NCBI GenBank assembly: GCA_003644175.1
Contig: QNBS01000017.1
Span: forward strand, 1 to 14,790
Reading direction: 5' to 3'
DNA length: 14,790 nucleotides
Origin: Planctomycetota bacterium
GTDB lineage: Bacteria > Planctomycetota > Phycisphaerae > Sedimentisphaerales > Anaerohalosphaeraceae
Positions 85 through 14,790 of this stretch are shown here, piece after piece (the first letter of the stretch is position 1; every line of letters begins with the position of its first letter). Both the position numbers and the translations under genes were made by a program. Below the pieces are notes generated by a model that saw only the letters and a program-made list of their open reading frames with translations, made no database searches and was not told the origin of the DNA.

Positions 85-1101
85 TTATTGGAAGATTTTG
101 GTCCATCTGCGGGGGGTTCTGTTTTGCCAGTTTCTTTTGTGGTAGACGCAGCTGACTATTAGCGGCAGGACCCCGGCGGCTTCTGCGAATACCATTTGCT
201 CGTGGTTTGTTTCTACTTTTCCCCATGAGGCCGCTTCCCTGAGTGTTGAGCCGGAGCAGCCTCCGTCGCGTGGGTCGGCTACGGTGATCTGGATGGCGTA
301 GCGGTGCATCCTGACGGGTTTTCCGAGCAGTTCGGCGCAGACGACGGTGTCCTGTGCGAAATTTTTCGGCACGCCGCCTCCGATCATGAAGAGGCCGGAG
401 ATGTCGGAGCGCATCTTGATCTCTGTGAGTTCCCTGAAATCCTTGACCGAATCGATGGCCACGTGATTGTCGGGCCTTTCGACCTGGTGGGCGACCAGTC
501 CGAAACCGGCCGAGGAATCCGAGAATGCCGGGCAGAAAATCGGGACATCCTGTTCGTAGGCCGTCTCGATGAGTGAGTCATGCTTGACCGCATGATCGAC
601 GAGATAGCGTCCCATTTGGCGGATGAACTCTCTGGAAGAATATGGGCGCGCCGCGAGTGCGTCTGCAATCTTTTTGACCGTGTTGTCGCATACCTGCAAC
701 TGCTCCTCGTCGATGTAGGTGTCGTAAATGCGGTCGATATAGAGTCGCCTAAGCTGCGTGTCGTCTGCGGCGGCCGAGCCCTTGTAGTGGGCAAAGCCCA
801 GCGCCTCGAAGAAGTCCATATCGACAATCGTCGCACCGGTGGCGACGACGGCGTCGACCATGTTGTGCCTGACCATATCGACGTAGATCTTCATGCAGCC
901 TGCGGCGCTGGTGCTGCCTGCAATGCAGAGAATGATCGTGCAGTCCGGATCGGCGATCATCATGTTGAGAATGTCGGCGGCGGCGGCGGTATCGCGAGCG
1001 GTAAAAGACATGTCCCGCATCGCCTCGATGATCGGCGTCGAGTCGAACGACTTGATATCGATATGTTTGACCGGTTGGCGGAGAAAATCTTTCTTTTCCA
1101 T
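85..1101 (-). CDS. speY: Deoxyhypusine synthase-like protein, probable homospermidine synthase (SpeY type)
   Basis: This 338-residue protein belongs to the deoxyhypusine synthase (DHS) family, cytosolic NAD-dependent aminobutyl transferases. The visible landmarks are an N-terminal VKHIDI segment, GSTSAAG near residue 65, GGGVPKN at 241-247 and EAASWGK at 289-295. The Lys of SWGK matches the catalytic Lys329 of human DHS, and Glu289 and Trp293 match its Glu323 and Trp327. The position of human His288 is Asn247, and the position of Asp316 appears to be Cys282, so the substrate pocket differs. Bacterial members of this branch generally act on free polyamines and make homospermidine; no eIF5A gene is visible here. 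I chose the ATG at 1101 because GAGGG lies 6 bases upstream; a TTG two codons earlier overlaps the speB stop. It is the last gene of the trxA-pdaD-speB operon, which supplies putrescine. The family call is secure; the exact product is inferred. Confidence 0.85.
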   Translation of the reverse strand: MEKKDFLRQPVKHIDIKSFDSTPIIEAMRDMSFTARDTAAAADILNMMIADPDCTIILCIAGSTSAAGCMKIYVDMVRHNMVDAVVATGATIVDMDFFEALGFAHYKGSAAADDTQLRRLYIDRIYDTYIDEEQLQVCDNTVKKIADALAARPYSSREFIRQMGRYLVDHAVKHDSLIETAYEQDVPIFCPAFSDSSAGFGLVAHQVERPDNHVAIDSVKDFRELTEIKMRSDISGLFMIGGGVPKNFAQDTVVCAELLGKPVRMHRYAIQITVADPRDGGCSGSTLREAASWGKVETNHEQMVFAEAAGVLPLIVSCVYHKRNWQNRTPRRWTKIFQ

Positions 1102-1103
1102 TT

Positions 1104-1958
1104 TCAACCCTCAAAAACGCAGCTCAATAACTTGTAGATCAGCTTGGCGGCCAGGAAATCCGGCGCTCTGTTCTGCTCGTTAGGGCACAGTTCGACGACG
1201 TCAAAGCCAACCACCTTCCGTTGGGCGGCGACGGCCTTTAGCAGGGCGTTAACATCGTACCAGCCCAATCCGCCCGGTTCGGGCGTGCCCGTCGACGGCA
1301 TGATCGCCGGGTCGAAGACGTCGAGGTCTATGGTGATATAGACTTTCTCGGACAAGGCCGCCACGACGCGGTCGATCCATGTGCGGTTGTCGTATATGTC
1401 CCGTGCGAAGAAGATACGGTCCGGCTCGCTAATGCTGTGTTCGGCGGCGTCCATGCTTCGGATGCCGACCTGGACAATCGGGCATTGCTCCCGGGCTCTG
1501 GCCATTACGCAGGCGTGGTTGAATTTCGAGCCTTGGTACTCGTCGCGCAGGTCGGTGTGGGCGTCTAATTGCAAGACGGTGAGACGCTCGTGGGATTTTG
1601 CATGTGCCCGGATCGAACCGATACTGACGGAGTGTTCGCCGCCGATGAGAACCGGGAATTTGCCCTTTTGGCGCCATGCCGAAACCGCTTTCTCGACGGC
1701 GACGGACATTTCCTCGGGACTGTCAAAACCCTCGGCGGGCTTGTCTGTGTAGATGCCGCGGAGGAAGACCTGCGAATCGGTGTCGATGTCATACAGTTCC
1801 ATGTGGGCCGAGGCGTCGATGATTGCGGCGGGGCCCTTATCGGCGCCTTTGCCCCAGGTGCTTGTGCCGTCGTAGGGGGCGGGGATGACGGCGATTTGTG
1901 AATCTTCGAGCCGACAGTTCACGGCGGGCGGGTCGGCAAAATTGGCTCTCGGTTTCAT
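1104..1958 (-). CDS. speB: Agmatinase (ureohydrolase family)
   Basis: This 284-residue ureohydrolase probably hydrolyses agmatine to putrescine and urea with a binuclear manganese centre in the cytosol. Metal-ligand motifs of the arginase/agmatinase family are all present: GGEHS (His109), DAHTD (Asp132, His134, Asp136) and TIDLDVFDPA (Asp211, Asp213). The substrate-loop motif GTPEPGGL is at 224-231. Length is normal for bacterial agmatinases. It starts 12 bp after the pdaD stop and its TGA overlaps the region just before the next gene, which fits translational coupling. No strong Shine-Dalgarno sequence is visible before the ATG. Agmatinase is preferred over arginase or formiminoglutamase because the upstream neighbour makes agmatine. 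An alternative role, hydrolysing an agmatine-modified protein as proposed in some archaea, cannot be excluded given the DHS homologue next door. Confidence 0.9.
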   Translation of the reverse strand: MKPRANFADPPAVNCRLEDSQIAVIPAPYDGTSTWGKGADKGPAAIIDASAHMELYDIDTDSQVFLRGIYTDKPAEGFDSPEEMSVAVEKAVSAWRQKGKFPVLIGGEHSVSIGSIRAHAKSHERLTVLQLDAHTDLRDEYQGSKFNHACVMARAREQCPIVQVGIRSMDAAEHSISEPDRIFFARDIYDNRTWIDRVVAALSEKVYITIDLDVFDPAIMPSTGTPEPGGLGWYDVNALLKAVAAQRKVVGFDVVELCPNEQNRAPDFLAAKLIYKLLSCVFEG

Positions 1959-1970
1959 AGGCCAGACGTT

Positions 1971-2522
1971 TTAATCATCAAACAAAAACATTGCAACGGC
2001 CACGGTGGTCGTCCAGAGGTTTTGTTGCCCCTTGGCGGTCTGGGTGATATTGGTCGTCTTGATGAAAAGACCGCTGGATCTGTAGGCCTGCTCCTTCTCC
2101 GACCAGGCCTTATCCGGGTCCACTTCCATACCTAAGGTTGTGCCCAGCATCTCGGCGGCAAGGTCTTCTGCCATGTCTTCTGCCTGCCGGCGGTTCATGC
2201 CGTGGCCGTGCACTTCGCTGAGGTAGCCCCACTTTTCACAGTTTTTGGGGATTGCGATCCCGACCGAGGAGGCGACGAGGCGCCCGTGTTCATTGGTGTC
2301 GGCTCGCGCCATCACGCAGAATCCTATCTGGCCCGGGGACAGTCTGCCGATGCCGGCTTTTCTGCTGATGATTTTGCACTTGGGCGGGAGGATTGACGAG
2401 ACCTGGACCAGGTTCAAGTGGGCGACCTCGGCCTGCCTTAACGCCTCCTCAAAAGACTTTAGCCGGTACTTGTGCCGCCCGACACCTTTGGTCAGAAAAA
2501 CACTTGTTGGTACGTGATTCAA
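1971..2522 (-). CDS. pdaD: Pyruvoyl-dependent arginine decarboxylase
   Basis: This 183-residue proenzyme is of the pyruvoyl-dependent arginine decarboxylase family (arginine to agmatine plus CO2). Family hallmarks are the N-terminal TKGVGRHKYRLKSFEEAL segment and the self-cleavage site VSSILPP at 41-47. By family precedent the chain is cut between Ser42 and Ser43, and Ser43 becomes the pyruvoyl group, giving a small beta and a larger alpha subunit. The region LSPGQIGFCVMARADTNEHG and the C-terminal TTVAVAMFLFDD also fit. The start is a TTG; AGGGA lies 8 bases upstream at the end of trxA, and no in-frame ATG would keep the conserved N-terminus. It begins 5 bp after the trxA stop and ends 12 bp before speB, so it provides the agmatine that SpeB uses. 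Confidence 0.92.
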   Translation of the reverse strand: MNHVPTSVFLTKGVGRHKYRLKSFEEALRQAEVAHLNLVQVSSILPPKCKIISRKAGIGRLSPGQIGFCVMARADTNEHGRLVASSVGIAIPKNCEKWGYLSEVHGHGMNRRQAEDMAEDLAAEMLGTTLGMEVDPDKAWSEKEQAYRSSGLFIKTTNITQTAKGQQNLWTTTVAVAMFLFDD

Positions 2523-3364: not shown

Positions 3365-6325
3365 ATGTCCTCAGACAACAATAGTTTCGTGAAAGTGGCG
3401 TTTTCAGTACTGGTAATTGCATTTACAATTATCTTGTCGGCGGAACTCATGGCTGTTGAGTTTGATTCCGAAGATCCGGAAGATCCTGGAGATATACCTT
3501 ACGCATGGATAAAGATTGGAACAATGGCAAGCGGCAAGCTCGATTATGATGGTAAGGTTGCAGACACCGACACATTTATTGACAGCGGCTCAACCATATT
3601 CGTCGGCGGCGCCGATGCAGATGTAACACTGAACGGAAATGGTATCGTCAAAGCCTATGCGAAAAAATATTACCATGACCAGGCCGCTCCTATGGAAGAT
3701 TTTGGTTTGGCTGACAGTGGCGGTTCGCTTGGTATGGCATCACAAACCTACAAACCATTTACAATAACATCCGACACTCTTGCTGACGGCTCGACAATTG
3801 ACCTTTCCACAAATGTTGTTTATGACGGTCTGATAGTCCTCCATGAAAAAAAAGCCGGTGAGTATTCCTCCGGTCAGATCGATTTTTTGTTCGAGATCGC
3901 AGATGACACAAGCGGCAGTGGCGCTATTACCGCTACCAACGGGGCTACAGTATCTTTCGAGGGTCAGTTGAGAATTCAGGATTCTTTTGACGGAACAACT
4001 CACACGTATACCAATGTTGCCGACATGGCTCCAGAAACTGTCGTCAATATTGATTTTCCGGATGAGGCGGCCGACAATTACTGGGATGGCGATGGGAGGG
4101 CTGATCTTACTATTGTGGAGATTGATCCTGCAGACCTGGATAACTTCACTGTTCTGCAGGGAAGTCTCGATGTGCTTCCGGCAGCTATCAAAACCTCAAT
4201 TACTGATAATAACTATAACGCAGCGGGCAATAAAATCTACTATATAATCTTTGACAAAACAATTACTTACCAAGGCGAAGTGGGAAAGAAATACTATGTG
4301 TATATGGATGCTCACGCCGCCGCACAGACCTCCCTTGGTGATGACGGCGCATGGGCCGGCAACGAAACACTGGTTGTATGCGATTTTTCGAATACCGTGG
4401 GGTACGACATATCAATGAGCGGCGCCAGCGGGCAGACGACTTCAACGATTTCAGATGACGAAGCTTTTGGAAACAACGGTGTTGGAACGATAGAACTTTC
4501 TGGAGGTGCTTTACGATGGAACGATGGCGTTTCATTGGCATATGATTTTGCACTTGGAGCAGGCACGACTTCGGTCATGGATACGCAGTCCAACTCAGGT
4601 ACTATTGCAGGCGATATCAGCGGAACAGGCGGTCTTACGAAAGAAGGCGCCGGCACTTTAACCCTCCCTGCGGGCAATACATATACCTATACAGGCGCCA
4701 CAATCGTTTCGGAAGGCGGTCTTGTTGTTAACGATTCATTTGACAGCGCGGTTACCGTCAACGACGGAGCATGGCTCGGCGGATCAGGCGGGTTCAATGC
4801 AGCAGTAACAAATAACGGCACATTAAAGCCGGGTAATTCGATAGGTCCCCTGGTATTGTCAGGAAACTACGTTCAGGGAAGCGGTGGGCAACTGGAAATA
4901 GAAGTTGCCGACGCAGATAACAACTCCGATACACTCGTCGTTGGCGGAGATGTTACCCTCGACGGAACTTTGTATGTCACACAGACAGAAAAGATTACAG
5001 AGACAAGAGAGTACGCTGATATTGTTTCGGCGACAGGCACACTATCCGGAACATTTGCCACCGTAACCGGAAGCACCGAACTGTTTTATGATTACACAGC
5101 TGTTGTTGACGGCAAAACTATCGACCTTACAGTAGATAAAACGGCATCGTTCAGCGATTTCGCCGGCGGCGCCACCAGGGGCGTAGCTTCTATGCTTGAA
5201 CGTACATATGACGCCGAATCTGCAACAGGACAGCTGGCTACTGTAATAGATTCAATAGTCTCCCTGTCATCGGCAAGTGCGGTCCAACAGGCCTACTCTG
5301 AACTTACACCTGGTAATATTACAAACATCACATCAACTACAGCCCTCAACTCCAGCGGCCTGTTCTCCGGTGCGATCCAGAAACATATAAGCAAGGCGCG
5401 ACTCGGTAATAACATAACAGTTGCCGGATTGAATAAGCCGGAAAGATTGCTCGCCTCGAATTCAAAGGACGCAAAGACTTACATCCGGCATAGAGATTAT
5501 GATGTTCCTGCCCAGGGTTTTGTAAAAACTTACGCAAGCAAAGGCGACAGAGAAAGCGACGGCAGCCAGGCCGGATACGATTTCGAGATATACGGTACGG
5601 CACTTGGAATCGATAAACTGATAGACGAGAACCTGCTGGCCGGTATAGCTTTCGGATACTCAAACGGCAATGTGGGGTCCTCTGATAACCTCACTCAAAA
5701 CAGTATGGAAACTTTCAGCACTTCAATCTACGGCAGTTGGTTCGATCTTGATTCGTATGTAGACGTTGTCGTTGGGTACGGGCATAACTGGTATGATGTT
5801 TCCAGAAAGATAAGCATTGCCGGCCTGAGGGCGTCAAGTAATCCTGAAAGCGATGTCTGGTCCACATCGATAACGGCAGGAAAAGCGTTTTATCTGGACG
5901 ATACGACCGTGGAGCCTTTTGCCGGTTTTTCATATACCCTCCTCCAAAGCAGAGGCTATACCGAAAGTGGCGCCGGGAATATCAGTCTTTCTGTCGATAG
6001 AGACAATGTCGACAGCATAAACAGCATGCTTGGAATGAGAATAGCGAAATATTTTGTAGTAAATGAAAAACCCCTGGCAACCGAATTCACACTGGCGTGG
6101 AAGCATGACTACTCCGACAGGATACAGACAAGCTCGAGATTTGTTGGCAGCAATTCGGCCTTTAGCACACGAGGACTCGATCCCCTGCGGGATTCTATGA
6201 TAGCCGCTGTAAGCATCGAAGCCAATCTTACTGAAAACTCAAAACTTTTCGTCAAATATGATACCGAATTCAACGGGCAGTTCCAAAGTCATACAGGGCA
6301 AATAGGCGTCAAAGTAACATTCTGA
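3365..6325 (+). CDS. Autotransporter (type V secretion) with beta-solenoid passenger
   Basis: This 986-residue protein has the layout of a classical autotransporter. Residues 1-30 form a signal peptide (hydrophobic 11-26, cleavage probably after LMA). Residues 31 to about 370 are Gly/Asp/Thr-rich passenger without a recognised motif. At about 370-540 lie passenger-associated repeats: GGLTKEGAGTLTLPAGNTYT is near residue 420 and LKPGNSIGPLVLSGNY near 485. A linker with LTPGNITNIT precedes the barrel. The last ~275 residues (from about 712) show alternating beta-strand patterns (YGTALGIDKL, VEPFAGFSYTLL, EFTLAWKHDYSDR), and the chain ends in VKVTF, a terminal Phe as used by the BAM complex. AAGAAAGG lies 6 bases upstream of the ATG. 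The gene stands alone between divergent and convergent operons. It is visibly more AT-rich than its neighbours, so horizontal acquisition is possible. The passenger substrate or ligand is unknown. Confidence 0.88.
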   Translation: MSSDNNSFVKVAFSVLVIAFTIILSAELMAVEFDSEDPEDPGDIPYAWIKIGTMASGKLDYDGKVADTDTFIDSGSTIFVGGADADVTLNGNGIVKAYAKKYYHDQAAPMEDFGLADSGGSLGMASQTYKPFTITSDTLADGSTIDLSTNVVYDGLIVLHEKKAGEYSSGQIDFLFEIADDTSGSGAITATNGATVSFEGQLRIQDSFDGTTHTYTNVADMAPETVVNIDFPDEAADNYWDGDGRADLTIVEIDPADLDNFTVLQGSLDVLPAAIKTSITDNNYNAAGNKIYYIIFDKTITYQGEVGKKYYVYMDAHAAAQTSLGDDGAWAGNETLVVCDFSNTVGYDISMSGASGQTTSTISDDEAFGNNGVGTIELSGGALRWNDGVSLAYDFALGAGTTSVMDTQSNSGTIAGDISGTGGLTKEGAGTLTLPAGNTYTYTGATIVSEGGLVVNDSFDSAVTVNDGAWLGGSGGFNAAVTNNGTLKPGNSIGPLVLSGNYVQGSGGQLEIEVADADNNSDTLVVGGDVTLDGTLYVTQTEKITETREYADIVSATGTLSGTFATVTGSTELFYDYTAVVDGKTIDLTVDKTASFSDFAGGATRGVASMLERTYDAESATGQLATVIDSIVSLSSASAVQQAYSELTPGNITNITSTTALNSSGLFSGAIQKHISKARLGNNITVAGLNKPERLLASNSKDAKTYIRHRDYDVPAQGFVKTYASKGDRESDGSQAGYDFEIYGTALGIDKLIDENLLAGIAFGYSNGNVGSSDNLTQNSMETFSTSIYGSWFDLDSYVDVVVGYGHNWYDVSRKISIAGLRASSNPESDVWSTSITAGKAFYLDDTTVEPFAGFSYTLLQSRGYTESGAGNISLSVDRDNVDSINSMLGMRIAKYFVVNEKPLATEFTLAWKHDYSDRIQTSSRFVGSNSAFSTRGLDPLRDSMIAAVSIEANLTENSKLFVKYDTEFNGQFQSHTGQIGVKVTF

Positions 6326-7507: not shown

Positions 7508-7786
7508 TCATCCTCTCAAGCCTGTCGCCCGGCGGACCCTGTCCATTGTGGCCTGTGCGACTGCGCGTGCTCTTTGCGCTCCGCTTTTGAGCACACTGTT
7601 AACAAAACCCGGATCATTTTTCAACTCGGCCCGTTTCTGCCGGTATGGCTCGAAATACTCATGCAGCAGTTCGGCCAGGCGTTTCTTGGCCGTGCCGTAG
7701 CCCATGCCGCCGGCGCGATACTTCTGCTCCCAGTCCTTTAGCTCCTGGGCCGAGGCAACGAGCTTAGCATTGCAAAGACGTTGCAC
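7508..7786 (-). CDS. trpS: Tryptophanyl-tRNA synthetase, C-terminal fragment (frameshifted)
   Basis: This frame carries the C-terminal part of TrpS, beginning in the conserved run KLVASAQELKDWEQKYRAGG and continuing MGYGTAKKRLAELLHEYFEP, which belongs to the anticodon-binding helical domain. It ends in AQATMDRVRRATGLRG, as expected for the end of the enzyme. The nominal GTG at 7786 has no ribosome-binding site and lies inside the upstream frame, so this is a continuation of the N-terminal fragment and not an independent gene. Its TGA overlaps the first possible start of the DUF2007 gene. Confidence 0.85.
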   Translation of the reverse strand: MQRLCNAKLVASAQELKDWEQKYRAGGMGYGTAKKRLAELLHEYFEPYRQKRAELKNDPGFVNSVLKSGAQRARAVAQATMDRVRRATGLRG

Positions 7787-8472
7787 GTATCGGGGTCTTT
7801 TGGATCTTCCACCGGCGTCGAATCGGTTACGATACGCATTACCTTCTTCCTGACGCTTTTTTCAGACTCGAATATCTCGATCGTATTGTCATAACTCTTG
7901 CTCATTTTTCGCCCGTCAAGACCGGGCACGACCGCCACAGAGTCCAGGATGTGCTCCCTGGGCACTACGAACGTCTCGCCGTAGCGGTTGTTGAATCGAA
8001 TTGCGATGTCGCGCGTAACTTCAATATGCTGCTTCTGGTCGGCGCCTACGGGCACGAGATTGCTGTCGAAGATGAGGATATCGGCCGCCTGCAGTACCGG
8101 GTAGGCAAATAGCCCGTGGTTGGGAGAAAGCCCATTGGCAACTTTGTCCTTGTAGCTGGTGCACCGCTGCAAAAGGCCCATCGGGGTTATGCAGGACAGA
8201 ATCCAGGCCAGTTCGGTTACCTGGGGGACATCGGACTGTCGCCAGAAAACGGTCTTTTCCGTATCCAGACCCAAGGCAATATAGTCCATCGCCACATCAA
8301 GAGACCCCTGTTTTAACTCGGCCGGGTCCGGGCCGGTCGTCAGCGCATGGTAATCGGCAATGAAGTAAAAGCCCTCATTGTCGGCCTGCAACTGAAGATG
8401 CTGCCGCATTGCGCCAAAATAGTTGCCGATATGCAACTTTCCTGACGGCTGTATACCAGAAAGAATCCGCAA
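7738..8472 (-). CDS. trpS: Tryptophanyl-tRNA synthetase, N-terminal fragment (frameshifted)
   Basis: This part encodes the class I catalytic core that charges tRNA-Trp with tryptophan. From the TTG at 8472 it starts MRILSGIQPSGKLHIGNYFG, with the HIGH-type signature HIGN at 14-17, and it carries KMSKS at 189-193. The TTG is chosen because GGGAGG lies 5 bases upstream and family members start with exactly this stretch; a GTG at 8505 adds 11 unrelated residues. After DTCNVFAML the frame runs into SSLPRPRS and stops, while the correct continuation is in the -1 frame. Joined with one added base the product would be about 321 residues, normal for TrpS. It heads an operon with the DUF2007 gene and scpA. 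Confidence 0.92.
   Translation of the reverse strand: MRILSGIQPSGKLHIGNYFGAMRQHLQLQADNEGFYFIADYHALTTGPDPAELKQGSLDVAMDYIALGLDTEKTVFWRQSDVPQVTELAWILSCITPMGLLQRCTSYKDKVANGLSPNHGLFAYPVLQAADILIFDSNLVPVGADQKQHIEVTRDIAIRFNNRYGETFVVPREHILDSVAVVPGLDGRKMSKSYDNTIEIFESEKSVRKKVMRIVTDSTPVEDPKDPDTCNVFAMLSSLPRPRS
7762..7767 (-). other. Frameshift site within trpS
   Basis: On the minus strand the sequence reads GCA ATG CTA AGC TCG. Family conservation calls for ...VFAML-KLVAS, which is restored if CTAAGCTC is read as CTAAAGCTC, that is, one A missing from a run of three (AA at 7764-7765). There is no classical X-XXY-YYZ slippery heptamer directly at the junction. An assembly or sequencing indel, or a true recent mutation, is therefore more likely than programmed frameshifting. 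Confidence 0.85.
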
Positions 8473-8477
8473 ATTGA

Positions 8478-8483
8478 CCTCCC
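8478..8483 (-). promoter_or_regulatory. Ribosome-binding site that fixes the trpS TTG start
   Basis: A full GGGAGG motif on the minus strand lies 5 bases before the TTG at 8470-8472. It decides the start in favour of this TTG over the upstream GTG at 8505, which has no such motif. Confidence 0.7.
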
Positions 8484-8514
8484 GTCGAATCAATAGGTTA
8501 AACACGTCTTGCCG

Positions 8515-8717: not shown

Positions 8718-9820
8718 TTACGGCACCGTTAACACAGTATTCCAGCCGCCGGTGTTTTGATTCGGCGACTGGTCCTGCGTCCGGACACGGTAGCGGAAAT
8801 GGCTGTTCGGAGCCGACACCTGTACGTAGTATATGTTTGGTCCGGTAGCCGGCAGCCCGGCGGGGTCCAGAGACAGATTAACCGCATTCAACCATCCGCT
8901 GTCGTAGATCCCGCCCCCGTCAAGACATTCGAAGTAGTACTCTTCACCGTTACCCTCGGCATCGGCAACCGCCTGGACCGACATCCAGTGCCAGTACTCT
9001 GTCAGCCCGGAAGTTGGATTCACCCAGGTGAACTGCTGAGGCGGATCCTGCCAGAGCGGCGGATCAGGCAGCGGCGGATTGAAATCGACGACTGCCGGAT
9101 CGGGCACGCCAAGGGCGACGACGGATTCGGCTGTCTCATTGCCGAACTTGTCTCTAACGCTGACACGATAGTAGTAATTTGCAAGAGGAGTTAACCCGTC
9201 AGGTTCAAAGATGTGCGGCGCAGGCGTATAATTAGCCCCGGCGGGATCGTGGCTCTGCTGCCATGGGTTCTCAGCCGTTCCGCTGCTATAACCGTCGCCG
9301 GCGCCCGCGTTTACGCCCGCCGCATCGGTGTACCTGAAGCGGTACTCGAGGGACCCATCGTCAAACGGGCTGACCTCCTCACCGGGAATGATTGGCCGGT
9401 AGGCAACCATCCTTAGCGCAGTGCCGCTTATTGCATAAGGCATGATATCCCACTGGGCCGGGTTCGGCTGCGGCGGATCGAGTTCATTGCCGGCGACAGT
9501 CGACTTTGGAAGCGACCAGTCAGTCATATTGCCGCGTCCGTCGCGGACCCTGACTCTGTATGTGTAGTCCGTTTCCCCGTCGGGATCAAGGCCGGTATTC
9601 TCGTAGTACTCCGGATTCGCCACATACGTCGCCGAATCGGTCGGGTCGTAATTCTGACGCCATCCGCTGTCGTAATCCGAATCGGTGCGACACTCGAAGT
9701 AGTACTCAACATGGTCGCCCCACCAGGCATCGAGAGCCACCTTGGCCGACATCTCAATTGCGCCCACTCCGGGGCCGACAGACTGAGGCGCCATATCCCA
9801 TTCGGCCGGATTCGGGGCCG
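8718..9820 (-). repeat. Three FN3-like C-terminal modules
   Basis: Three modules of about 115-135 residues begin with NPAEWDMAP (ending near 9820), NPAQWDIMP (near 9475) and DPPLWQDPP (near 9070). Modules 1 and 3 share EYYFEC and YDSGW, module 2 has EYRFRY at the equivalent place, and each closes with a YRVRV/YRVSV/YRVRT strand followed by an Asp-rich turn and Asn. This looks like a fibronectin-III-type fold, but the exact family cannot be named from the sequence alone. Confidence 0.6.
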
Positions 9821-12800
9821 GCGCCGGCGTATCTTCAGCGAGCCAGCACGTGGCAAAGATCAGTAAGTCGAAGACGTTAACACCCTTGTCCGTGTTGATA
9901 TCGGCGCCGCCACACCACTCCGGCTCGGTGCACTGATCGAGCCATACCAGGGCAAAGGACGCCATGTCCTTCATATCCACGACACCGTCAAATACCAGAT
10001 CGCAGACCTTGCATGCGGCCATTGTGAGCTTCAAGGGATAGTGGAAGCCCATATCCACCTTGCCGGTATCGAAGGTCTCAAACGCATCATCGGACCTTGT
10101 CGTGTACTTGTCCATGCCTGTCTCACTGGCAGGATCGCGTCCTGCATTGACACAGGGACTATCTTCATCCTGCCCGGCGGCAATCTGGCTGAGATAGAAA
10201 CCGCCCAACGGTCCAATGACAAACATGGGATCGTCCAGGATGTTGTTGCTCCAGATAAGATCACAGTCTTCTTCAACAAGGACAGCGGGTTCGCCCTGGC
10301 CTCCCTGGACATTGCTGTAAGAGACGTCCAGCTTGCCGGGTCTCGGGTCGAACTCAAAGCCCGTTCCGACAGCCAACTGTCGCCCGTTCGGAGCATAATT
10401 GCCTTTGAATATGCTGTGGATGACATCGACCTGGCTTTCATAACCGCAATACAGGCCTCCGCCAAGAGCGGCAAAGTCGAGCTCGCCGGCGCCGCTCTGA
10501 GGTATCTCATTGGGATCGGCGACATTGATGAAGCCGAAGTAGCCCGTTGCCCAGTTGTTGGCGAAAGTGCAGTTGGCGATCTCAGGCTGTGCAAACCAGT
10601 TGGACGAAACGCCGCCGCCGTCTCTGCCTGCCTTGTTGTTGACAAACAGGCAGTTGTTAATCGTCGAAATCTGCGGCTCGGCGCCTGTCAAATATAAACC
10701 ACCACCGGAAGTGTTAGCCTGGTTGTCGAACAACTGCAGATTCCTGATATCCGCCGTTACCGACGCAAGGTGAATACCGCCACCGCGACCGACAACCTGT
10801 TCGGGATCGGTCTCGGTTGCACCGGCAAAGTTGCCATGTACAAAACCGCCCTCGATAACAGCATCGCCGCGTAAGCCGTAAATACCGCCGCCATTATAAG
10901 CAAGGTTGTCCATGATGTTGCAGTCTTCAACACGCAGAGCATTGCCATGCCAGTAAACACCGCCGCCGATCGACGCTTCGTTGCCGCTAATCAGACAATC
11001 TTTGAACGTCGCAGTTTCTGTGTCGTCAAGGACTATTCCACCGCCATAACCCAGAGCCGGATCTATAACCGGCACTGTTCCGGGCTTGGGTGCGACATTG
11101 GAAGAAATCTCACCTCCCTCGAACTCAACAATACTGTCGGGGGCGCAGTAAAGGCCGCCGCCGAAACTCGGTATCTCGTAAATCTCGAACGGATAGATTC
11201 TGCCGCCGCTGATTGTCATGCCGGGCGCCAGAGCCCCGTCTCCGACTTCGCCGCCAAGACCACTGAATCCGCCCTGGGTCGTATTGCCGGAAATTGTACA
11301 ATCCACAAACCGCGATTTACTCTCGGCTGAACAATAAACACCGCCGCCGTAGGCGCTGTACAAGGTATAATCACCCTCTTGCCCCAGAAGTTGCCATGGA
11401 TAGTAGAACACATTGCTCCAGCTTCCACCATAGCCCGGCGGATAAGGAATATCGTTAACTTCACCGCCGTCACCACCGTTACCGCCATTACCGCCGGTAG
11501 CGGTGCAATTGCTGATGGTGCAGTGAATGAACTGCGGTTCAGCCAACTCGCCGACAAAGACGCCGCCGCCTCGGGCCCAACCACCCCAGCCACCGCGACC
11601 GCCGCCAAAATTAAACTCGTTGGCATTTGCGCCATTGCCGCCGTCGCCGCCGTAAGCGTGACAATCGGTAATTGTCGTGTTGATAAATGTCGGTGAGGAT
11701 TCCGCAAGGCAACAGACACCGCCGCCATAAGCATTGCCGCCGTCGCCACCGTCGCCATCGAAGAAATTGGTGTCGTCTTCGTCGCCGTCGCCTCCTCGTC
11801 CGGCATGAATCTCAAATCCCGTTATCACACAGTTCTTGATCGTCGGTGAAGCGCCCGACCCAATAATGAGACCTGCACTGAATATATCACCACCATCAAA
11901 ACCGTTACTGGAGCCTACGATATACCTGAACCATCCGTTGGCGGCGATAGTAATGCCGTTTATCACAGTTTCCGGTCCGGCATTGGCGGTGAAGTATATA
12001 GCAAAATTGGCATTCGTGCCGGACAGATCGATAACCGTACCGGCTACAACATCCGGATCATCGGGGTTGGTGCTGGTAATAGTGACAGCCTTATCGATAA
12101 TAACAGCCCCGCCGCGGTAAGTTCCCGCGGTCAGAACAATCACATCACCGTCCCTGGCGTTGTCCACCGCCCCCTGGATCCTGTCTGCATCGCCGGGCAC
12201 ATACCATGTCCTGGGCTCTGTGTCAGGAGGGTCAACATCGAGAATGTCGATGTCTGATTCATCATCGGCATCATATATCCTTGAACCCTGTGTCGTACCG
12301 GGCGGAAGATTACCGATGTCAACCATGTCGGAGATGTATGAAACGACTTTCGGAGCAAGATAGTCATAAGCCTCCTCGGCCGACACATATCCACTGTTGT
12401 CGCCGAGCCGGTCGGCGCCGCCCTCTATCGCTCTGAGCAGATAGTATGTAAATACCCCGTGACGTAAATCGTCGGAATAGAACGCCATCTCATCGACTCC
12501 GCAGGCGGTAAGGACAACGCCCGCTTCATTCCTGTTAAGATCCTGAGGCAGCGGTTCTGAGTCTTCATCGCCGGAAAAACTCAGACCGGCTTCACTGGCG
12601 ATACTATTTGTAAACTGAAGTTGAACGGACTCTGGAAGCTCATATGCACCAACAGGGGACGAAGAAATTCCGTCGATCTGACCTGCCGAAAAATCGGTTT
12701 CAATAAGGACTACATAGTTATCGGTTGCAAATTCTGCAAGCATCTGACCGAGTTCATCGTCCCTGATACCGTCATACTCGTAAGTAATAAGATACTCGTC

Positions 12801-14790
12801 CCGGCCGTCAATTTCATCGATCGGTTCTATATCAACATCTGCAAAACCATAACCGGAGAAGTAGAAAACAAGAACGTCGTCGCTGTCGAGCTTTTCCGAA
12901 AGCTGCCGGAGAACCAACCGAATCGCCGGCTTGGTGGCTTGACTGTCGGTCAGGGTATAGATATTGTCTTCATCCCAGTCAAGACCTTCGGCAAGCCTGG
13001 CGCTAAGCTCATACGCATCACGAGCGGCATAAGGGAATTCGATAATCTGGCCGAACAAATCGTAATAATCCGATATTCCTACGATCACTGCGTAATATTC
13101 AGTACCTGCTTCGACATACGCGGCTGTAACTTCCTTGTCGGAATTCATTGTCGCAACGTTCGTTGCGTCCACAATAGTTCCGTCGTCAACACCCGTCCAC
13201 TTCACCTGGAATCCGTCCGGAGGCTCAGTTACAGTCATCTCGACAACCGTGCCCGGTTCATACACGTACATGGTCTCGCCGCCGACTTCCACCTCAATGC
13301 CCGAAGGATTGAGTTCGACAAGTTCGGGCTCAAAGTCCGGCAGAAGTTCAGGGTCCCAGTCAAGGTTTACATCAAGGGTGTAGCCAATGCTTTCAAATTC
13401 AACGATAACGGTCTTGTTGCCGTCCATCGTCACAATGTTGTTGGGTTCATGGCGCAAATCATCGTCCGTATTCGTCCAGACCGAGTGATATCCGGGCGGC
13501 GGCGGCTCCACGGTCAACCTGACCTGGGTAAGTTGATTGTATATCGGGCCGGCCGGATCCCGGGTAATCACAGGATCAAAGCCCGGCAGCATGAACGGAT
13601 CGACAATTGCAAAGTAGTCAAGTCTGTACCGCTTGACCTCCGTTTCAAACGGCAGGTGATGAAACCCAAGGTCAAGCGCCTTTTCGTCATATATCCCTTC
13701 ATCAAACTTTTTGCTGTCGGATCGCGTGGTATACGCTTCCATGCCGAAGTCTATGGCCAGACGATTCTGTTCGACATTGTGGATGTAATCAACACACCGA
13801 CTGCGTTCAATCTGGCCGGCGTCCGGCTCGCTGAGGAAGTAATCGCCCACCATCAGCGGATCGTCCATGATGTTGAACGTATCGACATCCCATTCCTGAC
13901 TGTTCGGATCCCAGCCGCGGAGTATGCAGCCTTCGTCAACGTAGATAGGCATGCTGCTCAGATTGGCGATCGCCGCACCAAGATTCACCCTCGGCTTTGT
14001 GATCGCCACCTTCGTATCGGTTATCGGCACACCGGTTGCAATCAGCAGGTTCCTGACCTCTACCGGCGTAAGGTATCTGTCGGTCTTGTCCAGAGCGGCG
14101 GCCTGGATACTCGCCACACAACCTGCCGCAAACGGAGTCGCCGACGATGTGCCGTTAAAGTTCGGGATGTAATCGCCCGGGACATAACCGGCGAGACCGA
14201 CCATATCTGTCGTGTACATCGGATCGGCCGGAGCAAGTATATCCAGCAGTTCGGCCGTATTCGAGTACCCGGTCACCATATCGGTTGTGTCAAAGACGGC
14301 GCCGACGGAGATCACTTTGCTCATCGCCGACGGGTGTGAAATGCCTTGACCGGCAAATCCGTCATTGCCGGAAGCTGCAAGTATGGTAATCCCCGCCATG
14401 TCCAGAGTATTCGCCGCCGCGGTGAGAGCCGGCACAAAGGCGTCAGCGGCGGCGGCGTTGTTGAACGGCAGACCTGTGAAACCCCAACTGTTGCTGACGA
14501 CCATAATCGGATTTTGCGGGTCGCTGTTCTTGTTGGTCACACACCAGTCCCATGAGGCAATGCCCGCTGCTATGGACATTCCTCCAAAGTCATTCGCCAT
14601 TTTCAATGCATACAGTTTGGCGCCGTAGGCAACACCGCCGATATAATCGCCTACCGTACCGAGATCGCCGGCGGCAATACCGGCACAGGCCGTGCCGTGG
14701 GCGCTGGTGGCGGGCATCGGGTCGGGATCGTTCATGCCGAAGTCGTAACCGCCGACGACCTTGTTGTTCGGGAAGCCTCCGCCGCCCAGA
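8718..14790 (-). CDS. Giant secreted subtilisin-like multidomain protein (5' end outside window)
   Basis: At least 2023 residues are visible; the open frame runs past the internal ATG at 14735 to the window edge, where LGGGGFPNNKVVGGYDFG precedes it, so the signal peptide and catalytic Asp are off-window. Domains in order: an S8 protease (to about 13950) with His in HGTACAG (14697-14699), oxyanion Asn in SGNDG (14364-14366) and Ser in GTSSATP (14145-14147); an isolated beta-helix-cap module (13647-13878); two InlB-B-like repeats (about 13100-13640, with VTMDGNKTV); a caspase-fold domain lacking its catalytic pair (12330-13100); a right-handed beta-helix (about 10250-12210); a second cap (10036-10251); a dockerin-like module (9837-10016); and three FN3-like modules. 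Export to the surface or outside is inferred from this layout. The S8 part is probably active. Substrate and physiological role are unknown. Confidence 0.9.
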   Translation of the reverse strand, partial: LGGGGFPNNKVVGGYDFGMNDPDPMPATSAHGTACAGIAAGDLGTVGDYIGGVAYGAKLYALKMANDFGGMSIAAGIASWDWCVTNKNSDPQNPIMVVSNSWGFTGLPFNNAAAADAFVPALTAAANTLDMAGITILAASGNDGFAGQGISHPSAMSKVISVGAVFDTTDMVTGYSNTAELLDILAPADPMYTTDMVGLAGYVPGDYIPNFNGTSSATPFAAGCVASIQAAALDKTDRYLTPVEVRNLLIATGVPITDTKVAITKPRVNLGAAIANLSSMPIYVDEGCILRGWDPNSQEWDVDTFNIMDDPLMVGDYFLSEPDAGQIERSRCVDYIHNVEQNRLAIDFGMEAYTTRSDSKKFDEGIYDEKALDLGFHHLPFETEVKRYRLDYFAIVDPFMLPGFDPVITRDPAGPIYNQLTQVRLTVEPPPPGYHSVWTNTDDDLRHEPNNIVTMDGNKTVIVEFESIGYTLDVNLDWDPELLPDFEPELVELNPSGIEVEVGGETMYVYEPGTVVEMTVTEPPDGFQVKWTGVDDGTIVDATNVATMNSDKEVTAAYVEAGTEYYAVIVGISDYYDLFGQIIEFPYAARDAYELSARLAEGLDWDEDNIYTLTDSQATKPAIRLVLRQLSEKLDSDDVLVFYFSGYGFADVDIEPIDEIDGRDEYLITYEYDGIRDDELGQMLAEFATDNYVVLIETDFSAGQIDGISSSPVGAYELPESVQLQFTNSIASEAGLSFSGDEDSEPLPQDLNRNEAGVVLTACGVDEMAFYSDDLRHGVFTYYLLRAIEGGADRLGDNSGYVSAEEAYDYLAPKVVSYISDMVDIGNLPPGTTQGSRIYDADDESDIDILDVDPPDTEPRTWYVPGDADRIQGAVDNARDGDVIVLTAGTYRGGAVIIDKAVTITSTNPDDPDVVAGTVIDLSGTNANFAIYFTANAGPETVINGITIAANGWFRYIVGSSNGFDGGDIFSAGLIIGSGASPTIKNCVITGFEIHAGRGGDGDEDDTNFFDGDGGDGGNAYGGGVCCLAESSPTFINTTITDCHAYGGDGGNGANANEFNFGGGRGGWGGWARGGGVFVGELAEPQFIHCTISNCTATGGNGGNGGDGGEVNDIPYPPGYGGSWSNVFYYPWQLLGQEGDYTLYSAYGGGVYCSAESKSRFVDCTISGNTTQGGFSGLGGEVGDGALAPGMTISGGRIYPFEIYEIPSFGGGLYCAPDSIVEFEGGEISSNVAPKPGTVPVIDPALGYGGGIVLDDTETATFKDCLISGNEASIGGGVYWHGNALRVEDCNIMDNLAYNGGGIYGLRGDAVIEGGFVHGNFAGATETDPEQVVGRGGGIHLASVTADIRNLQLFDNQANTSGGGLYLTGAEPQISTINNCLFVNNKAGRDGGGVSSNWFAQPEIANCTFANNWATGYFGFINVADPNEIPQSGAGELDFAALGGGLYCGYESQVDVIHSIFKGNYAPNGRQLAVGTGFEFDPRPGKLDVSYSNVQGGQGEPAVLVEEDCDLIWSNNILDDPMFVIGPLGGFYLSQIAAGQDEDSPCVNAGRDPASETGMDKYTTRSDDAFETFDTGKVDMGFHYPLKLTMAACKVCDLVFDGVVDMKDMASFALVWLDQCTEPEWCGGADINTDKGVNVFDLLIFATCWLAEDTPAPAPNPAEWDMAPQSVGPGVGAIEMSAKVALDAWWGDHVEYYFECRTDSDYDSGWRQNYDPTDSATYVANPEYYENTGLDPDGETDYTYRVRVRDGRGNMTDWSLPKSTVAGNELDPPQPNPAQWDIMPYAISGTALRMVAYRPIIPGEEVSPFDDGSLEYRFRYTDAAGVNAGAGDGYSSGTAENPWQQSHDPAGANYTPAPHIFEPDGLTPLANYYYRVSVRDKFGNETAESVVALGVPDPAVVDFNPPLPDPPLWQDPPQQFTWVNPTSGLTEYWHWMSVQAVADAEGNGEEYYFECLDGGGIYDSGWLNAVNLSLDPAGLPATGPNIYYVQVSAPNSHFRYRVRTQDQSPNQNTGGWNTVLTVP
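9837..10016 (-). other. Dockerin-like module within the giant protein
   Basis: Two EF-hand-like calcium loops are visible: DLVFDGVVDMKDMASFALVWL and ADINTDKGVNVFDLLIFATCWL, separated by a Cys-containing linker (CTEPEWC). The arrangement is that of planctomycete dockerin-type modules. Unusually it is not terminal; three FN3-like modules follow it. A cohesin partner is not visible in the window. Confidence 0.7.
10036..12210 (-). repeat. Beta-helix coil repeats with glycine-rich inserts
   Basis: After the opener WYVPGDADRIQGAVDNA and VIVLTAGTYRGGAVI, coils of roughly 25-60 residues repeat a pattern like YGGGVYC-AES-P-F-x-x-C-T-I-x-x-C-x-A. This is the parallel right-handed beta-helix of pectate-lyase-like proteins. 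Between 11330 and 11800 several coils carry long loops made almost entirely of Gly, Asp and Asn (GGDGGNGANAN, GGRGGWGGWARGGG). At DNA level these appear as GCC/ACC-rich imperfect repeats on the plus strand. The block ends with the FYLSQIAAGQ...YTTRSD...MGFHY cap. Confidence 0.8.
12330..13100 (-). other. Pseudocaspase (C14-like) domain within the giant protein
   Basis: The segment starts EYYAVIVGISDYYDL and continues YAARDAYELSARLAEGL, DDVLVFYFSGYG and YVVLIETDFSAGQ. It ends with LTACGVDEMAFYSD, GVFTYYLLRAIEGGA and EEAYDYLAPKV, which match the order of conserved blocks in caspase/metacaspase-like C14 peptidases. The usual SGHG is SGYG (Tyr codon 12849-12851) and the usual D-x-C-[FH]-S-G is E-T-D-F-S-A-G (Asp codon 12693-12695). 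Both catalytic residues are therefore replaced and the domain is predicted to be non-catalytic. Confidence 0.8.

Follow-up and report, generated by a model that had tools for sequence, protein, structure and literature searches.

Pseudoenzymes are best known as intracellular regulators. In bacteria, two surveys describe pseudo-orthocaspases as retaining the C14 fold and both S1-pocket acids with the histidine and/or cysteine replaced (PMC6426788, PMC8283722); of 9,994 orthocaspases, 858 are of this kind, with 90% of these coming from Alphaproteobacteria and Cyanobacteria (PMC6426788), and YD, HG and FS variants are already listed for cyanobacteria, most without another identifiable domain (PMC8283722). 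A further comparison is offered by CspBA of Clostridioides difficile, in which an active subtilase and a pseudoprotease share one polypeptide (PMC12880746). Here we examine a catalytically dead C14 (caspase-like) domain encoded on contig QNBS01000017.1 of a Planctomycetota bacterium (assembly GCA_003644175.1), whose entire length of 14,790 bases constitutes the window analysed and whose source draft genome is rated 76.56% complete.

The window domain resembles pseudo-orthocaspases in its fold, its replaced catalytic residues and its S1 acids, but unlike them it lies within a giant S8/beta-helix protein of Planctomycetota. It also differs from the metacaspases AtMC4, CgMCA-I and TbMCA2 in lacking the catalytic dyad and in being part of a much larger protein. 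Whereas the pseudoprotease of CspBA is a dead Csp (itself subtilisin-like) that is separated by YabG and acts in germination, the dead domain of the window has a caspase fold, and the NCBIfam CspBA model matches the window's S8 domain with 22.3 bits, far short of its cut-off of 1250. An S8-C14 fusion in Planctomycetota was named in no title found, in a search of mostly titles and abstract openings with few subscription journals. The main text of PMC6426788 contains none of the terms Planctomycet, subtilisin, extracellular or secreted, and that of PMC11266412 contains none of six terms on proteases, giant proteins or adhesion. New with respect to the literature searched are the giant S8/beta-helix setting, the Planctomycetota clade and a second dead clade.

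The dead C14 domain and its setting

A single open frame on the minus strand, whose product is probably secreted, carries Pfam matches to Peptidase_S8, Peptidase_C14 and Beta_helix, in the order given by a preliminary description of this DNA. The features of the frame, with the residues at the two catalytic positions of the C14 domain as placed by alignment, are as follows.

8718..14789, minus strand: giant multidomain protein, open frame of 2023 amino acids (aa), 5' end truncated at the contig edge
14031..14726, minus strand: Peptidase_S8 (subtilase), residues 22-253 (Pfam E 8.6e-30 and alignment with homologues)
13110..13610, minus strand: S8-C14 linker, about residues 394-560 (aligns with homologue linkers; limits by eye)
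12270..13094, minus strand: dead metacaspase-fold Peptidase_C14 domain, about residues 566-840 (Pfam, genome search and fold comparison)
12849..12851, minus strand: Tyr647 (codon TAT) at the catalytic His position, in SGYG
12693..12695, minus strand: Asp699 (codon GAT) at the catalytic Cys position, in ETDFSAG
10110..12206, minus strand: right-handed beta-helix region, about residues 862-1560 (best Pfam Beta_helix stretch 1142-1304; limits by eye)
9810..10016, minus strand: dockerin-like stretch (by eye; without a Pfam match here)

The Pfam Peptidase_C14 profile (PF00656) matches residues 566-792 with E 1.8e-10 and 41.3 bits against a curated cut-off of 21.4, and a whole-genome search gave E 3.1e-12, far beyond chance. 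Together with the fold comparison, this bears out the proposed caspase fold and places the domain in Peptidase_C14, so that by sequence and model the segment is a metacaspase/caspase fold; only the interval first proposed, 12330..13100, proved slightly short of the real extent of about 13094-12270. Tyr647 and Asp699 stand where an active C14 peptidase has its His-Cys dyad. No intact His/Cys pair was seen elsewhere in the domain in the alignments, which rules out a displaced dyad, and judged from its residues the domain cannot operate by the standard caspase mechanism. It thus fits the definition of a pseudo-orthocaspase in PMC6426788 (a p20 with one or both catalytic residues replaced), with both replaced, and it has the two acidic S1-pocket residues named there, with a D-to-E change (Asp591, Glu697).

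Across 161 genomes of the order, eight close C14 relatives were found besides the window, at E 4.1e-27 or better. Five of these, from the related Planctomycetota G011, G009, G005, G019 and G004, have an S8 domain upstream of C14, and three (two from G086 and one from G067) have no S8 in the stretches read. The corresponding contigs also appear in our wider locus set (L131-L135, L136, L142 and L143, from G011, G009, G005, G019, G004, G086 twice, and G067) and were counted once. In G019 the S8 domain lies in an adjacent frame of the same strand and the C14 frame starts near an ambiguous base, so its S8 link crosses a frame break. Frames reach 6922 aa in G011 and 5022 aa in G005, and further domains among the five comprise beta-helices, InlB-type repeats (three of five) and a nidogen-like domain (G011). 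The G004 contig C60 (L067, L135) carries a 4402-aa frame, cut at the contig end, with two S8 domains and a dead C14 after the second only. More widely, S8 domains are widespread in the order, with matches at E 1e-25 or better in 53 of 161 genomes and open frames reaching 12,792 aa.

As described earlier, the visible catalytic residues of the window's S8 domain are intact, with His (HGT), Asn (SGN) and Ser (GTSSATP) present and the Asp position off the contig edge. The Asp was found by alignment in G011, G009, G005 and both G004 S8 domains, and also in G019, all of which possess a complete Asp-His-Ser. The window linker bears a likeness to InlB-B-type repeats by eye only; Flg_new_2, a Pfam family of this type, matches three of the five homologues, with the best stretch upstream of S8 and outside the linker. 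Dockerin_1 gave sub-cut-off matches in two homologues.

Catalytic states, phylogeny and selection

The His/Cys states of the six S8-linked domains, the window included, are Y/D, F/S, H/S and, three times, H/G. The cysteine is lost in all six (Gly in three, Ser in two, Asp in one) and the histidine in two. The Tyr/Asp pair, which was to be tested for conservation among homologues with the S8-plus-C14 layout, is absent from the other five and was dropped as a signature; the shared trait is therefore loss of the cysteine, and Y/D is particular to the window.

These states were set against 161 distinct C14 domains drawn from genome and GTDB scans, in which 219 matches were reduced to 163 by deduplication (on a 70-residue stretch, near-identical rows such as L197 and L199 being counted once), to 162 of at least 180 aa, and to 161 on removal of a spurious second match in L174; matches starting after model position 30 were excluded. 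Because the DNA pattern that recruited GTDB loci ends before the catalytic His, it imposed no selection for that residue. The set comprises 143 H/C domains, the six of the S8-linked clade, eleven of a second dead clade and one singleton H/I, a 465-aa open reading frame (L186) that retains His and has Ile in place of Cys. The nine nearest C14 relatives of the S8-linked clade (L136, L143, L142, L079 and L137-L141) all retain His and Cys in frames of 360 to 1560 aa, and unlike the window they have no S8 match in the loci read (short flanks only for L079). Cysteine loss thus occurs in 6/6 S8-linked domains vs 0/9 close relatives without a detected S8, an association that rests on one clade, perhaps on one event, and so is not independent evidence. 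Frames of at least 2000 aa, in loci as cut, were found for none of the 71 active domains in named loci (the other 72, from short-flank loci, fall outside this count) vs 15 of 17 dead-clade members, the two exceptions being the 1716-aa G019 fragment and the window itself (1227 aa in L001; 2023 aa in full).

A careful tree built from 46 of the 161 domains unites the S8-linked six in one clade (support 93/92) near the nine intact-dyad domains and places the second dead set in a separate clade (100/100); it requires three live/dead changes, with the singleton apart. FastTree applied to all 161 domains groups the S8-linked six at 97 and requires two. The S8 domains tell a different history. In a tree of 27 of them the S8 domains of the window and G014 are paired (100/97), as are those of G004 and G015 (94/85), neither G014 nor G015 having a C14 in the stretch read, and a single C14-bearing clade is rejected by the approximately unbiased test (p-AU 0.006). 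This conflict with the C14 clade indicates repeated gain or loss of the dead module among the S8 giants, or its movement between them. Furthermore, all 20 other S8 relatives retrieved lack a C14 match downstream over the 524 to 1915 residues read past S8; these regions were chosen non-randomly from the best-scoring places without C14 (one such place, in G081, was skipped), and three were read for fewer than 600 residues. A strict coupling of S8 to C14 is accordingly unsupported.

The C14 domains of the S8-linked clade differ less at nonsynonymous (pN 0.26-0.43) than at synonymous sites (pS 0.67-0.81; 5 of 15 possible pairs), with synonymous divergence (dS) at or near saturation, so that the nonsynonymous-to-synonymous rate ratio dN/dS is rough there. 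In the second dead clade dN/dS is 0.16-0.33 (7 of 55 possible pairs). These values suggest purifying selection on C14 in both dead clades.

The second dead clade (L158, L167, L168, L169, L174, L176, L184, L198, L199, L202 and L204) lies in giants of Thermoguttaceae and other planctomycetes, with frames that, as read, span 2284 to 4822 aa and no S8 match at these loci; two record titles mention goat omasum and water-buffalo rumen. All eleven members are dead (S/G in nine, then S/S and G/G), as read from the catalytic-state alignment, the nucleophile columns being gapped in the conserved-column alignment. Also identified in these giants was a conserved N-terminal region with a WAA..LA..L.YTGW block (L184:6413-7462 and the matching stretch of the ten other loci). 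Its structural model has a predicted local distance difference test score (pLDDT) of 53.6, and its best Foldseek match is IdeC, of papain fold, at 1.3e-4. The residue before W in the block, which we take to be the Cys place of IdeC-type papain-fold proteases, is Thr, Ala or Gly, which may make this region a second dead protease fold. Given the low-confidence model, a sequence profile that matched no PDB chain, the lack of any Pfam family shared between members and an IdeC match of only 1.3e-4, the papain-like reading is tentative.

Acidic positions and the role of the dead domain

Of the columns conserved among the nine active relatives, those of Asp591, Asp653, Asp658, Glu659, Asp664, Glu665, Asp677 and Asp678 are unchanged in 6/6 members of the S8-linked clade; in the same alignment the catalytic Cys is kept in 0/6 and the His in 4/6. 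Several acidic positions correspond to residues with roles named for characterised metacaspases, namely Asp95 and Asp211 in the S1 pocket of TbMCA2 (PMC4357240) and Asp198, Asp214 and Asp215 among the calcium-site residues of CgMCA-I (PMC9622860); our CgMCA-I numbering agrees with the residues named there. By sequence alignment, these positions are:

13017..13019, minus strand: Asp591, S1-pocket Asp95 of TbMCA2, kept in 6/6 (role PMC4357240)
12699..12701, minus strand: Glu697, S1-pocket Asp211 of TbMCA2, Asp in the other five (role PMC4357240)
12798..12800, minus strand: Asp664, calcium ligand Asp198 of CgMCA-I and Asp173 of TbMCA2, kept in 6/6 (role PMC9622860)
12756..12761, minus strand: Asp677-Asp678, calcium-site Asp214/Asp215 of CgMCA-I and Asp189/Asp190 of TbMCA2, kept in 6/6
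12672..12674, minus strand: Asp706, place of the fourth calcium ligand (Cys+7; role PMC9622860), Asp in 2/6

By sequence, the window has Asp at all four ligand positions of the metacaspase calcium site (TbMCA2 173, 189, 190 and 220), as Asp664, Asp677, Asp678 and Asp706; across the clade three of these positions appear in 6/6 and the fourth in 2/6, and both S1-pocket positions are acidic in 6/6. Since the acidic positions are kept and the nucleophile is lost, our preferred explanation, to which we assign a probability of roughly 0.42, is a dead metacaspase-fold module that binds without cutting, in line with the substrate-presenting or binding role suggested earlier. The source of the module was probably an active metacaspase-like protein that was secreted, and the nucleophile would have disappeared no earlier than the common ancestor of a small S8-linked Planctomycetota clade, with repeated gain or loss among S8 giants after recruitment. 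A predicted calcium-stabilised domain would hold Arg/Lys side chains of a ligand in its acidic pocket, and might so tether a peptide, protein or cell surface beside the active subtilase and the beta-helix.

A number of observations weigh against binding. The fourth calcium position is Asp in only 2/6 members and Lys in the three active relatives checked, S1 position 697 of the window is Glu rather than Asp, the place of TbMCA2 Cys92 is Ala or Ser in the S8-linked six, and folding alone may account for the retention of the acidic residues. Clade support of 93/92 is just below the program's 95 mark, the saturation of dS noted above blunts the evidence for selection, and the absence of partners is weak evidence since the genomes are incomplete drafts. 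Finally, the second dead clade keeps Asp591 in 11/11 members but Asp664, Asp677 and Asp678 in 0/11, so a calcium-dependent function is not general.

A plain structural role fits nearly as well as a binding module, although we consider it, too, doubtful. The domain would be a rigid, ligand-free bead between linker and beta-helix, consistent with the bead-like build of the S8-linked relatives (beta-helices and repeats), with a module that 20/20 other S8 regions do without, and with a second dead clade that retains the core and not the acidic loop; set against this, the calcium-type and S1-type acids persist in 6/6 of the window's clade while the nucleophile loop varies. The preliminary description had also proposed that the pseudocaspase regulates its neighbour. 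Inhibition or activation of, or substrate presentation to, the adjacent S8 domain would suit a single polypeptide in which the His and Ser of S8 are intact (as is the Asp wherever it can be seen), and has a precedent in kind in the active subtilase fused to a signalling pseudoprotease described for CspBA (PMC12880746). As the other S8 relatives examined do without C14 (20/20), as does the first S8 of G004 (whose one C14 stretch follows the second), and as one clade of all C14-bearing proteins is rejected in the S8 tree, such control seems rather improbable, and this proposal lost ground. A further idea, a decoy for an active caspase partner, is unsupported, PF00656 having turned up no C14 besides these in any of the six genomes, all drafts; one of the scans concerned overlooked the G005 domain recovered by other searches.

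Decay to a non-functional remnant is less probable again. It would account for catalytic residues lost in differing ways (G, S, D) and for the lack of C14 in S8 relatives examined outside the clade, and is opposed by frames free of stops through the domain, by a fold and acidic positions that persist at about 33-59% identity, and by pN below pS in all five pairs. The earlier preference for a retained non-catalytic role over decay is thereby upheld. Catalysis by another nucleophile (Ser or Asp), suggested by Ser at the Cys place in 2/6 members, one with His kept, is highly improbable given Gly in 3/6 and a window domain that lacks His as well.

Remaining genes of the window and biological meaning

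Elsewhere, the window encodes a 986-aa protein (3365-6325, plus strand) in which a passenger repeat accompanies an autotransporter beta-domain (E 1.1e-54), here in a planctomycete contig. Consecutive deoxyhypusine-synthase, arginase-family and pyruvoyl-dependent arginine decarboxylase matches at 85-2522 (minus strand) form a polyamine-type cluster. A class I tRNA synthetase (W/Y) match at 7738-8505 (minus strand) occupies one frame of the 7508-8505 stretch; as the overlapping frame at 7508-7786 (minus strand) resembles a synthetase C-terminus by eye, this gene may be frame-broken in the assembly.

More speculatively, and in our judgement unlikely in its full extent, Planctomycetota may on at least two occasions have converted a metacaspase-like protein into a domain of giant surface proteins that does not cut. 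For the clade of the window, this domain would read Arg/Lys-rich peptides or surfaces in a calcium-dependent manner, would have spread as a module between giant subtilase proteins and would capture targets for the active protease next to it; for the second clade, a dead caspase fold would share the same giant with a Cys-less IdeS-like papain fold. With these domains, Planctomycetota join the groups with conserved pseudo-caspases, and a dead caspase-fold clade beside an active protease in giant, probably secreted proteins provides a natural test case for the function of a caspase fold that no longer cuts.
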